From Promethearchaeota archaeon (GTDB lineage Archaea > Asgardarchaeota > Lokiarchaeia > Sigyniarchaeales > SOKP01), in the NCBI GenBank assembly GCA_016839765.1, contig JAEOTP010000012.1, forward strand, positions 1 through 49,891: a stretch of DNA of 49,891 bases, in the 5' to 3' direction. Positions 37,703 through 41,589 of this stretch are shown here, piece after piece (the first letter of the stretch is position 1; the number at the start of each line of letters is the position of its first letter). A model generated the notes under the pieces. The model was not told the DNA's origin. It did no database searches and worked only from the letters and a program-made list of their open reading frames with translations. The position numbers were made by a program, and so were the translations under genes.

Positions 37703-38845
37703 ATAGGAGAATGCAAATTCTGTGGAAAGAAAGATAAGTTAATTTCAGAAATTCTTCAAGCATGTAGGAATTGTATTTTAAATAAAGACTGGGAAAAGAT
37801 AAAATCCCATATCTTATCAGTTCATAGTCAAGTGAGAAAACTCGTTGGTTTGCCCATAAAGCCTCCCAAAGCAGAAGGTTCAGATATTCAATTGAAATGT
37901 AATTATTGTATTAACGAATGTATTTTATCTAAAGACGATGTAAGCTATTGTGGGCTAAGAAATATTTCAAAGAAAGAAACAGGCGAATTACCATTTCCTT
38001 CTAGATCCAAAGGTTATATTCACGGGTACATTGATGCGAATCCCACAAATTGCTGTAATGCATGGTTTTGTCCAGCAGGTACTTCACGGGGATATCCGGA
38101 TTATTCTGATTATAATGAACCGGAATTTGGCACATATTCATATGCAGCATTTCTATATGGATGTACATTTTCGTGCTTATTCTGCCAGAATTATAGCCAT
38201 AAGCAATTCCAGAAGCGACATCTATTTGATAGTGAAACTTTAGCAAATCAAATAGTAAAAAATGAAAAAATTACTTGTTTATGCTATTTTGGAGGCACTC
38301 CTGAAGCGCAATTACCCTTTACTATAAATTTAGCAGAATTAATATTAAAGAAGATCAAAAAGCAAAACGCTGTAAGAAAATTCAGAGTTTGTTGGGAGTG
38401 GAATGGCAGTGGTAATAAGGCTTTAGTTGATAAATGCATGAACATTGCCATTAAAACGGGTGGAAATATAAAATTTGATTTAAAAAGCTTTGATGAGAAA
38501 TTAAATTTAGCGCTGTGTGGCGTCAGTAATAGTAGAACACTTGATAATTTCAAATATCTCGCGGATAATTATTTTGGTACGCGGGGAAAGGAGATGCCAG
38601 AAATGAGCGGTTGTACATTAATGGTTCCGGGATATGTCAACCATGAAGAAGTGGAGTTAATTGCGACATTTATTAGTGAGATAAATCCTGATATCCCATA
38701 TAGCCTTTTAGTGTTTCATGGTGATTATCAAATGAGGGATTTATCGATAACACCACGAGATCAAGCGTTAAAATGCTTGAAAGTTGCTCAAAAATATTTA
38801 AAAAATGTACATTTAGGGAACAAGTTCTTATTGGGCTTTTCTTAA
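37703..38845 (+). CDS. Radical SAM protein with N-terminal zinc ribbon, apparent AUA start
   Basis: The radical SAM cluster motif CTFSCLFC lies at C154, C158 and C161 when numbered from the start used here. The N-terminus GECKFCGKKDKLISEIL...ACRNC (C4, C7, C21, C24) is a zinc ribbon typical of a PflA-like archaeal family. The first standard start, GTG at 37832, would delete this ribbon. Upstream the frame is open back to the stop of the preceding gene with no ATG, GTG or TTG. ATA at 37703 sits seven bases after GGTGGTGA, where homologs are expected to have Met. So the start is AUA or there is a base error. The 3' end has a second, diverged copy at 41121-41162 beyond an HNH gene. Confidence 0.8.
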   Translation: MGECKFCGKKDKLISEILQACRNCILNKDWEKIKSHILSVHSQVRKLVGLPIKPPKAEGSDIQLKCNYCINECILSKDDVSYCGLRNISKKETGELPFPSRSKGYIHGYIDANPTNCCNAWFCPAGTSRGYPDYSDYNEPEFGTYSYAAFLYGCTFSCLFCQNYSHKQFQKRHLFDSETLANQIVKNEKITCLCYFGGTPEAQLPFTINLAELILKKIKKQNAVRKFRVCWEWNGSGNKALVDKCMNIAIKTGGNIKFDLKSFDEKLNLALCGVSNSRTLDNFKYLADNYFGTRGKEMPEMSGCTLMVPGYVNHEEVELIATFISEINPDIPYSLLVFHGDYQMRDLSITPRDQALKCLKVAQKYLKNVHLGNKFLLGFS

Positions 38846-38891
38846 TTTTACTCATTAAATCTAAAGATTCATCTATAATTAAATCAATCTT

Positions 38892-41024
38892 TTATGATTT
38901 TAAATGATATTCACCATCTCTAAAAAAAATAAGATGAGATTTTAATAGTTCATCAACCAAATCCAATAAAGAGGATTCAATTAACAAGTGTTCATTCCTA
39001 TTTTCACAGATCCATAAATTTTCCAATCTATTATCCATACTATCAAAATTGATATGATGAACTATACATTCTGGTTTTAAATATTTTCCATCAATAAGAT
39101 ACTTTTTTGACCATTGTAATTCAGGATGCTCTGTTAAGTATAGTTCAATAACATAACGATGCTCGTACATCCATCCATTATTATTCTTGGCAGTAGGATT
39201 TTCGAACCTTTTTGGTACTCTCATCCAAACTCGACCTTCACTATGCTGGTGTTTTCCAAAACCTCTCTTCTTATTTTCCATATCAATATTATGTTTAACT
39301 TTAGACCAATAATAAATAACACCTCTATCAACACCACATAATTTGGCAAGTCTTCTTTGTGTTAGATTAAAGTTTTCATCTTGAACAAGATGCTCAACCC
39401 ATTGTTTATGTAAATATAAAGGATTTTCATCCGAACAATTTGAATAAGGATCTAATGAAATTTGTTTTTCTGAAGATTGATTTTCACGAATTTTGACAAT
39501 CCAATTGTCAGAAATCTCTTTCCAATTAATTTTTTTAATCTCTTCTTTTACCAAGTTTATATCTTTATAGGGATTAATGGATATTGGTTTTAATAATTCA
39601 TTAATCTTAGACGAGCTTAATTTTCTACAATCAAAATTAATATTTAAGTAATATTTACCATCTTCAAAACCTATTTGATTCAATTTAATTAAATCTCTAA
39701 AACATTCATTTAATGATCTTTCTGCTTTCTTATGACTTTTAGTATTTTCATATAACCATAAATTTTTCAACCTATTATCAGATTTTTTAAAATTAATATG
39801 GTGAACATTACATTCAATCTTCAAGTATTTTCCGTCAATAAGATATTTTTTTGACCATTTTAATCCTGGATTTTTCAATAAATAATTTTCCATTACTATT
39901 TCATGTTCAAATCGAACATTTCTACCTTTTTGAGGGACTAATTCTGGATGTAAATATCCATTAGGCATATATAATTTTACATAACCTCTTTTGTCAATCC
40001 AACTTCCATTCGTCCAGTTTTTTGCGGGAATACCATGTTTTTTACGCCAATTTTGTATTGTAACGAGATGCACTCCGCATACTTCACTTATTAATTGATC
40101 AGTTAAATTCAATTTTTTATTAGTATAAATTGTCTCCAACCAAATCTTATGTTTATATAAAGGATTTATTCTTGAGCAATCTTGTTTAGGATTTAATCGA
40201 ATCTCATAATTTGAATGCTGATTTTTTGGATATTTAATATTCCAATCTTTTACGATATCGTTCCAATCTATTTTTTTAATAAAATCTTTTATTAATCTTA
40301 TATTTAGTTGCGTCACTTGTATTTCGGGCACTTTTATAAGTTTAGGTAGAATTTTGGAGGTATAATATTCTGTTGTTGCTTCTAATTTTTGTTCACACAA
40401 TAAGAGGTTAAAATTTTGATCGTAATTAATGGACTTCTGGTCCTTGCGGTTTGAGTGGATATTTGGTTTTGAGATTGGTTTTACGTTTTCATTTTTATCG
40501 ACAGGTTTTAGCGGAATAATTTTATTTTTAGGGGTGTAATTTGGCTGGAGTTTTGGGGGTGTAATTTTATTTTTAGGAGTATAGTGATGCTCGAGTGTGG
40601 GCTGTTGGATTTTATTGATGGGCTTGTCGGTTGGTTTGTTTTTTGGTGGTTTGATTTTATTTCTGGTTATGTAATTAGGCGGAAGTTTGGGCGGTCTAAT
40701 TTTGTTTTTGGGTATGTAGTGAGGTTGGAGAGTGTGTTGTTCGATTTCTTGTGTAGGTTTATTGGTTGGTTTATTCTTTGGTGGTTCGATTTTGTTTTTG
40801 GTCAGGTAATTAGGCGGAAGTTTCGGCGGTATAATTTTATTTTTAGGCGCGGAACGAGGGTCGAGGTAGTGTTGTTCGATTTCTTTTATGGTTTTGTGGT
40901 CTGGTTTAGTTTTAGGGAGTTGAATTTGGTCAGAGCGTATATCTGCATCTTTAAATTGAGGATTGTGGATATCTTCTTTCACATCTTTTTTGGGATGCTG
41001 AGTTTTAAATTTGATTTTAGTCAT
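38892..41024 (-). CDS. Double HTH-HNH endonuclease-like protein with Pro/Lys repeats, putative insertion
   Basis: A 710-residue protein. Residues 1-35 are charged, about 36-174 a Pro/Lys/Asn-rich repeat, and the rest two copies of one module. Each module has an HTH (NLTDQLISEVCGVHLVTIQN; NLTQRRLAKLCGVDRGVIYY), then a segment with HEIVMENYLL or HRYVIELYLT, WSKKYLIDGKYLK, and an HNH core: CNVHHINFKKSDNRLKNLWL or CIVHHINFDSMDNRLENLWI. HNH plus HTH is the build of free-standing homing endonucleases. It is antisense to its neighbours and flanked by two copies of the radical SAM 3' end, which suggests an inserted element. Neither cleavage specificity nor mobility can be shown from this sequence. 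Confidence 0.72.
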   Translation of the reverse strand: MTKIKFKTQHPKKDVKEDIHNPQFKDADIRSDQIQLPKTKPDHKTIKEIEQHYLDPRSAPKNKIIPPKLPPNYLTKNKIEPPKNKPTNKPTQEIEQHTLQPHYIPKNKIRPPKLPPNYITRNKIKPPKNKPTDKPINKIQQPTLEHHYTPKNKITPPKLQPNYTPKNKIIPLKPVDKNENVKPISKPNIHSNRKDQKSINYDQNFNLLLCEQKLEATTEYYTSKILPKLIKVPEIQVTQLNIRLIKDFIKKIDWNDIVKDWNIKYPKNQHSNYEIRLNPKQDCSRINPLYKHKIWLETIYTNKKLNLTDQLISEVCGVHLVTIQNWRKKHGIPAKNWTNGSWIDKRGYVKLYMPNGYLHPELVPQKGRNVRFEHEIVMENYLLKNPGLKWSKKYLIDGKYLKIECNVHHINFKKSDNRLKNLWLYENTKSHKKAERSLNECFRDLIKLNQIGFEDGKYYLNINFDCRKLSSSKINELLKPISINPYKDINLVKEEIKKINWKEISDNWIVKIRENQSSEKQISLDPYSNCSDENPLYLHKQWVEHLVQDENFNLTQRRLAKLCGVDRGVIYYWSKVKHNIDMENKKRGFGKHQHSEGRVWMRVPKRFENPTAKNNNGWMYEHRYVIELYLTEHPELQWSKKYLIDGKYLKPECIVHHINFDSMDNRLENLWICENRNEHLLIESSLLDLVDELLKSHLIFFRDGEYHLKS
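40503..40847 (-). repeat. 45-residue (135-bp) Pro/Lys tandem repeat in the HNH gene
   Basis: Residues 60-104 and 105-149 are two full units of the form PKNKIxPPKLPPNYxTxNKI followed by xPPKNKPTxKPxxxIxQ and TLxxHY. Residues 150-174 are a partial third, and a degenerate unit precedes them. The plus strand here is G/T-rich, unlike the rest of the window. Repeat arrays of this kind change length easily by slippage or recombination. Confidence 0.8.
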
Positions 41025-41120
41025 GATATCTGGTTTTAATATGATACATGTTCTTAAAAAGGAGTAGATGTCAGAGGTTTATAAAGAAAAATTTAGTGTG
41101 GCAAAATAATATTAATAAAT

Positions 41121-41162
41121 AATGTGAATTTAGGCAACAAATTTCTTTTAGGGTTTACTTAA
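41121..41162 (+). pseudogene. Second, diverged copy of the radical SAM gene 3' end
   Basis: Fourteen codons, AAT to TAA, encode NVNLGNKFLLGFT. The intact gene ends NVHLGNKFLLGFS at 38804-38845. Eleven of 13 residues agree, with differences mostly at third bases, and similarity continues into the AT-rich 3' flank. Stops lie upstream in this frame. This is the fragment left beyond the inserted HNH gene. Confidence 0.75.
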
Positions 41163-41283
41163 TTTTTAATGAATTAATTTTTAAGATTTATATAATAAAA
41201 TATTTATTTTACAAACAATTATCGTTCATACGATTACTAATTAGAATTAGAATAATCATTAAAGTAAAGGAGAACTTGGTAAA

Positions 41284-41589
41284 GTGCAGAAAGCTAGGAT
41301 TCGCTTAAGTTCCACTATACTAGAATCACTAAATTCAGTATGTGAGCAGATTGAGAGTGTATGTAAAAGCCAAGGAATAAAAAAGCACGGCCCAATCCCA
41401 TTACCTACTAAACACTTGAAAGTTCCGGTAATGAAAAATGTTTCAGGTCAAGGTACATTACATTGGGCTAAATATGAAATGCGTATTCATAAAAGATTAT
41501 TTGAAATTATTGCTAATGAACGGAGTATGCATCTAATTATGAAGATACAAATTCCCGAATCAGTTCTAGTTGAAATAGAGCTAATGTGA
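41284..41589 (+). CDS. rpsJ: Small-subunit ribosomal protein uS10
   Basis: A 101-residue archaeal/eukaryotic-type S10 of the ribosome. Seen: start QKARIRLSST, central GPIPLPTKHLKVPVMKN, and the C-terminal YEMRIHKRLFEIIANERSM and IQIPESVLVEIEL blocks. The start is GTG with AAAGGAGA ten bases upstream. In many archaea this gene follows the elongation factor 1A gene. Here it stands alone after the inserted HNH gene, so its usual context has been broken or differs in this lineage. Residues between GPIPLPTK and the second half are somewhat divergent, but the length is normal. Confidence 0.96.
   Translation: MQKARIRLSSTILESLNSVCEQIESVCKSQGIKKHGPIPLPTKHLKVPVMKNVSGQGTLHWAKYEMRIHKRLFEIIANERSMHLIMKIQIPESVLVEIELM

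Follow-up and report, generated by a model that had tools for sequence, protein, structure and literature searches.

Homing elements that supply a replacement for the end of the gene they enter have, as far as we could find, previously been described from fungal mitochondria only. In the mORFs found in atp6 of Allomyces macrogynus and in atp6, atp9, cox2 and nad3 of Glomus sp., an endonuclease gene separates the foreign C-terminus that was inserted from the native one, which was displaced and resembles close relatives (PMC3630166). No archaeal or bacterial precedent was found in the literature, of which our coverage was partial. The locus described here shares the layout and logic of the mORFs, their horizontal spread and their varied target genes (PMC3630166). 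It differs in that mORFs encode LAGLIDADG or GIY-YIG enzymes in mitochondrial DNA and are in many cases expressed together with the gene or in phase with it, whereas here a multi-module HNH_3 protein is encoded in Lokiarchaeia chromosomes, antisense to its target in most elements, and the targets are metabolic and regulatory genes, unlike those of the mORFs.

Two further systems invite comparison. With the free-standing seg and mob genes of T4-like phages, as covered in part of a review, the present element shares the intron- and intein-free HNH condition and the co-conversion of flanking DNA, and some of the free-standing phage insertions lie inside essential genes; however, each phage enzyme is encoded next to its target gene and cleaves at some distance, mobE and mobA interrupt the genes into which they are inserted, and that part of the review describes no substitute gene ends (PMC2988022). 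I-HmuI (PDB 1u3e) resembles our protein in its HNH_3 motif and helix-turn-helix, and is the best PDB match, albeit a weak one (E 0.33, probability 0.66), to the AlphaFold model of the protein. Yet I-HmuI is intron-encoded, has one HNH domain and nicks one strand, whereas here two or three HTH-HNH modules are joined in a chain and there is no intron.

The window, by which we mean the whole 49,891-nt stretch analyzed here from a Promethearchaeota archaeon (Lokiarchaeia; contig JAEOTP010000012.1; genome G000), carries the following locus:

37703–38152, plus strand: native 5' part of a radical SAM gene (Pfam Radical_SAM), 93.6% nucleotide identity to the sister genome G023 over codons 1–150
38153–38845, plus strand: foreign substitute 3' part of the same gene, codon 151 to stop, including the CxxxCxxC motif; delimited by a change point and a rise in dS
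38804–38845, plus strand: upstream repeat, the final 14 codons of the resident radical SAM gene counting the stop
38892–41024, minus strand: HNH homing-endonuclease-like gene, 710 aa, antisense to the target (open reading frame; Pfam HNH_3)
40380–41024, minus strand: N-terminal portion of the HNH protein (~aa 1–215), rich in repeats
39732–39803, minus strand: first HNH catalytic motif, HHIN..DNRLKNLW...H (invariant columns in a 12-protein alignment)
38988–39059, minus strand: second HNH catalytic motif, HHIN..DNRLENLW...H (invariant columns; Pfam HNH_3 match)
41116–41162, plus strand: displaced native radical SAM 3' end, trimmed to about 14 codons and detached from any gene
41284–41589, plus strand: S10 ribosomal protein gene, the native downstream neighbor and right side of the empty site (Pfam Ribosomal_S10; synteny in relatives)

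The radical SAM reading frame occupies 37703–38845 (a GTG start is listed at 37832, yet homology reaches 37703) and has its own stop codon ahead of the HNH gene; the latter sits on the opposite strand and stands alone between the repeat copies. We are highly confident in reading this arrangement as an intronless homing element that couples a substitute 3' end for its target with an HNH-family gene, the product of which would cleave DNA. The initial annotation had proposed a mobile endonuclease cassette with a substitute 3' end, and this proposal gains support from a sister genome with an empty site, the recombinant 3' part of the resident gene and the same layout at other genes. The comparisons presented below show the native 3' end displaced beyond the HNH gene and undergoing decay there. 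They likewise show that the combination of substitute end and HNH gene has moved between species and genera, and that the ends of several unrelated genes have been replaced by the same HNH family.

The two copies of the gene end, NVHLGNKFLLGFS at 38804–38845 and NVNLGNKFLLGFT at 41121–41162, are identical at 32 of 42 nucleotides, with 3, 0 and 7 mismatches at the first, second and third codon positions. Since the mismatches fall mostly at third positions, the downstream copy derives from a functional gene end. When extended, the repeat (38799–38849 versus 41116–41166) reaches 40 identical positions of 51, compared with a best match of 32 of 51 among 300 dinucleotide-preserving shuffles, which bears out the earlier observation that the last 14 codons occur twice, in diverged form, around an antisense HNH gene. 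The displaced copy is closer to the gene end of G023 (44 of 51 nucleotides) than to the window's own resident end, and the window sequence 3' of it is 91–96% identical to G023. The repeat is therefore real, but the exchanged tract is not the 14 codons that the initial annotation had taken it to be: it extends from about 38153 (codon 151) to the stop, some 230 codons, and the 14 downstream codons are what remains of the displaced native end.

Up to codon 150 of the radical SAM gene, the upstream methyltransferase gene included, the window and G023 are about 94% identical; identity then drops to about 81% as far as the stop and returns to 91–96% in S10 and its leader. The best change point, at 38153 (codon 151), gains 19.8 log units against a maximum of 10.1 among 500 shuffles, and dS to G023 rises from 0.22 before it to 0.89 after it. 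On both sides dN/dS is about 0.13–0.15, and thus both parts are under purifying selection. Codons 151–200 of the window gene are 89–92% identical to G059, a genome of another genus, whereas the 5' parts of the two genes are 72% identical. By this comparative evidence, the resident gene is a chimera, native in its 5' part and foreign over its last stretch of about 230 codons. In the AU test, the sisterhood of G000 and G023 is not rejected for the 3' part (p = 0.33); because the tree cannot separate donor from sister there, the case for the window rests on the identity break. An exchange seems to have affected the 3' part of G023 as well.

The order methyltransferase–radical SAM–S10 is conserved in the genus and the family. 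Empty sites, with 100–131 nt between radical SAM and S10, occur in the sister genome G023 (121 nt), the kind of site that the initial annotation had suggested seeking in related genomes, and in G037, G054, G046, G048, G020, G018 and G029. The gap measures 2438 nt in the window and 2598 nt in G059, where the HNH gene at the same site is 77% identical to that of the window over the latter's last ~470 aa. In other genomes the space is taken up by ordinary genes, accompanied in some by a displaced radical SAM end that starts at codon 276 (G053), 317 (G057), 335 (G058) or 342 (G051); G039 carries a displaced fragment comprising codons 158–184. The displaced copy in G059 is far longer than that of the window, with ~218 codons from codon ~163, just after CxxxCxxC, to the stop, and one small internal deletion.

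In trees, G055 is the sister of G059 both for the 5' part of the gene (100/97) and for the displaced 3' copy (100/100), whereas the resident 3' part of G059 belongs to a clade that spans genera and includes G016, G015, G056, G000, G023 and G037 (96/98). Grouping G059 with G055 is rejected for the resident 3' part (AU test, p = 4e-59), and a clade of those seven genomes is rejected for the 5' part (p = 1e-68). A phylogeny of the two 3' ends, the check initially suggested, thus splits resident from displaced in G059, but leaves the 3' part of the window unseparated from that of G023. The suggestion that the substitute 3' end arrived with the element is upheld by the recombinant 3' part in the window together with the differing placement of the two ends in G059.

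A mechanical comparison of the left and right flanks of HNH relatives for duplicated gene ends recovered the same layout at genes encoding an enolase, a GTPase, a winged-helix protein, a MoxR ATPase and a coiled-coil protein. The earlier picture of a radical SAM cassette therefore holds but was drawn too small, the HNH family having acted at about six different genes. For enolase, the contig in G008 is only 3.2 kb long and of low coverage. The G008 gene is 92–99% identical to G009 through codon 360, while its last 34 codons are 64% identical to G009 and 96% to G057, which belongs to another genus; its displaced end is 89–91% identical to G009 and G021 versus 65% to its own resident end. The match between G008 and G057 runs on past the stop into the HNH gene, at 94% and then 99%, so that gene end and HNH gene are 94–99% identical between two genera, the enolases of which are otherwise 68–82% identical. 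The exchanged tract starts a few dozen bases before the junction and takes in the HNH gene, and the element terminates with nearly identical bases at about codon 405 in both genomes.

At the GTPase gene of G010, the displaced end is 87–97% identical to G015, G013 and G022 (codons 141–211), against 52–68% for the resident end. The winged-helix coiled-coil gene of G011 and G013 is ~95% identical to G010, G004, G015 and G022 until about codon 140 and ~63% identical thereafter, and that of G006, its 5' end cut by the contig, follows the same pattern; the 3' parts of G006, G011 and G013 are mutually ~95% identical, with G002 as their closest match. The displaced winged-helix end is 92–95% identical to G010, G004, G015 and G022 versus 69% to the resident end in G006, and 80–82% identical to relatives versus 69% in G002, while G011 and G013 have the substitute end with neither HNH gene nor displaced end. 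The MoxR gene of G008 is 96–100% identical to G009 up to codon ~210 and 78–83% beyond it; its displaced end is decayed and does not discriminate native from foreign. At the coiled-coil gene of G010, G015 and G013, the HNH gene is longer (~810 aa) and co-oriented with its target, and a displaced end is present, which carries an internal stop codon in G010 and G015; a G022 contig holds the displaced end and the end of an HNH gene.

For most targets, then, it is the displaced end that resembles the host's relatives, and the end fused to the resident gene is foreign. The mORF-type layout, with the endonuclease gene between fused end and displaced native end, is found in the window, G059, G010, G008, G006 and G002; the mORF-type pairing of a foreign resident with a native displaced end is found in G059 and at the GTPase, enolase and winged-helix genes. 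About half of the HNH relatives lack a duplicated gene end, among them the loci upstream of an HdrD-like Fe-S gene (G020, G057, G042, G026) and those beside NOG1 (G051, G056); decay, contig ends or different behavior may be the cause.

As a control, flank duplication (E ≤ 1e-5) was scored around HNH and other open reading frames, and was present at 6 of 14 HNH frames versus 7 of 220 others. Three of the seven control cases are the radical SAM site itself, and the remainder comprise tandem paralogue arrays, one similarity due to chance and another candidate relic; in this last case, from G020, a dehydrogenase-like gene end flanks a WD40-like gene. One of the six HNH cases (G034) sits between two full-length paralogues and may be unrelated to gene-end replacement.

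These counts bear on the best-surviving alternative, namely that lineages exchanged DNA at hotspots by ordinary homologous recombination and the HNH gene was carried along passively at the boundary. The 3' part of the radical SAM gene is indeed mosaic in many genomes without an HNH gene, and some displaced ends adjoin other genes, as do the radical SAM ends that flank non-endonuclease genes in G053 and G058 and the gene end beside the WD40-like gene in G020. Recombination of this kind would, however, replace the native end rather than retain it beyond an insert, and the layout is far commoner with the HNH family, at unrelated genes, than around other genes; with the enolase exchange starting near the junction and including the HNH gene, we consider this explanation unlikely. 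Still less probable is a tandem duplication of the radical SAM gene with an HNH gene inserted between the copies and the second copy decayed. A partial second copy does exist downstream, but duplication predicts neither the sharp break inside the resident gene itself, nor displaced rather than resident ends matching the host's relatives in several genes, nor the same layout and HNH family at unrelated genes. Two full tandem radical SAM genes, the arrangement that would have favored simple duplication and decay over the initial interpretation, were absent from the relatives examined, in which the longest displaced copy, that of G059, starts where the insertion apparently took place.

Integrase elements in gene 3' ends, such as e14 and phage 21 at icd and the islands in tRNA genes, likewise supply a substitute 3' end and displace the native one, through a site-specific recombinase and identical att cores. 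Recombinase-driven integration would yield the same outcome on either side of the insert, but neither of these hallmarks was found here: integrase and transposase genes are absent from the window, G059 and the enolase elements, where the HNH gene is alone, the junction repeats are diverged copies (66–78% identical, a difference of ~20–35%) without an identical core, and a search for a tRNA at the site found none, which makes this route highly improbable. An assembly or binning artefact is just as improbable: every genome compared is a MAG and the G008 enolase contig is short and thinly covered, yet the layout recurs in independent assemblies of different genera and at different genes, on contigs of 192 kb (window), 203 kb (G010), 68 kb (G059), 72 kb (G057) and 45 kb (G002).

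For the favored reading, a homing element that brings its own gene end, we propose the following mechanism. The two-module HNH protein would bind and cut the uninterrupted target allele at a fixed internal site, predicted at codon ~163 in the radical SAM gene and ~405 in enolase; by analogy with nicking HNH enzymes treated in the phage review (PMC2988022), each module may cut one strand. The break would be repaired off the element-bearing copy, its left end pairing with the 5' part of the gene. Should the right end pair with the donor's displaced native end, the substitute end and HNH gene would be inserted; should it pair with the substitute end, the result would be a converted gene without the HNH gene. 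Both predicted products exist: alongside the insertions, converted genes without HNH are found in G011 and G013 (winged-helix gene) and in G015, G016 and G037 (radical SAM). The substitute end would keep the gene functional and presumably destroy the cut site, conferring immunity, and after installation the displaced native end would be free to erode, as it appears to have done in the window. The element could thus spread without destroying host genes because it supplies its own replacement gene end.

With moderate confidence, we extend this reading to a Lokiarchaeia-specific class of mobile elements that retargets by capturing new core-gene ends, driving segment exchange across genera and leaving resistant chimeric alleles, some relics having lost the endonuclease and now holding other genes. 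The presence of such elements in Asgard archaeal chromosomes, at core genes like enolase, suggests that the strategy arose independently of the fungal elements. It offers a concrete mechanism by which genera of the archaeal group nearest to eukaryotes exchange core genes segment by segment, and phylogenies based on these genes accordingly call for caution. The model lends itself to direct testing, given the chimeric alleles, empty sites and variously decayed displaced ends that occur naturally.

The Pfam HNH_3 match of the HNH protein lies above the cut-off, and the HH-N...DN...NL...H residues of both HTH-HNH modules are invariant in 12 relatives. A search of PDB sequences with the HNH profile gave no match, PADLOC gave no meaningful defence match, and Rfam, consulted for a self-splicing intron, gave one sub-threshold chance match only. 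The 84,980 species genomes scanned confine close HNH relatives to Lokiarchaeia MAGs, with two weak matches elsewhere, and a viral collection gave three weak matches; within the order, the family occurs in 22 of 79 genomes, spanning three genera of one family. The repeat-rich N-terminal part (~aa 1–215), missing from the G059 HNH protein and present on other proteins elsewhere in the window's genome, is apparently a swappable module. Upstream of the HNH start, a segment of ~87 nt is common to the G059 radical SAM element and the enolase elements at 76–77% identity, scoring 68–69 versus shuffled maxima of 35–41, which is consistent with a putative discrete element end and promoter.

The gap between the radical SAM gene and the S10 ribosomal protein gene is occupied in many genus g1 genomes by a conserved membrane protein gene of about 366 aa (stretches L085-L088, L090, L091, L093, L094 and L099), indicating that this site acquires genes repeatedly. 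In the relatives G053 (L073) and G058 (L070), the gene in this gap is also antisense but encodes a related repeat-domain protein in place of the HNH protein, and a displaced radical SAM end was found past it. A further relative, G017 (L089, contig G017:C232), carries a 166-nt relic directly after the radical SAM stop; this relic shows 84% identity to the HNH start plus element end of G059, a genome belonging to a different genus.

Within the window's own genome, G000, the repeat-rich N-terminal module of the window HNH protein recurs at two other positions:
G000:C57:101716-102093 (L002), module by itself, near a gene that looks like a LAGLIDADG-type gene
G000:C56:8661-9302 (L003), module as part of another HNH protein, one that has Cys pairs

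Upstream of the longer HNH genes lies a partner gene of about 204 aa, without a Pfam family, which often overlaps the start of the HNH gene:
L107, 2529-3146, partner gene
L110, 2824-3438, partner gene
L109, 4256-4870, partner gene
L121, 4518-5129, partner gene
L113, 2675-3289, partner gene

In four genomes, an HdrD-like Fe-S gene is located directly downstream of HNH genes or HNH relics (L106, L108, L111 and L122), and a search for a duplicated gene end at these four loci detected none.

A duplicated gene end lacking an endonuclease was observed in the relative G020 (L083, G020:C30, 11494-14204), where the last 58 codons of a 369-aa dehydrogenase-like gene recur, at 76% amino acid identity, past a WD40-like gene. 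This layout, with the WD40-like gene between the two ends, is that of the HNH element, and the arrangement is possibly a relic.
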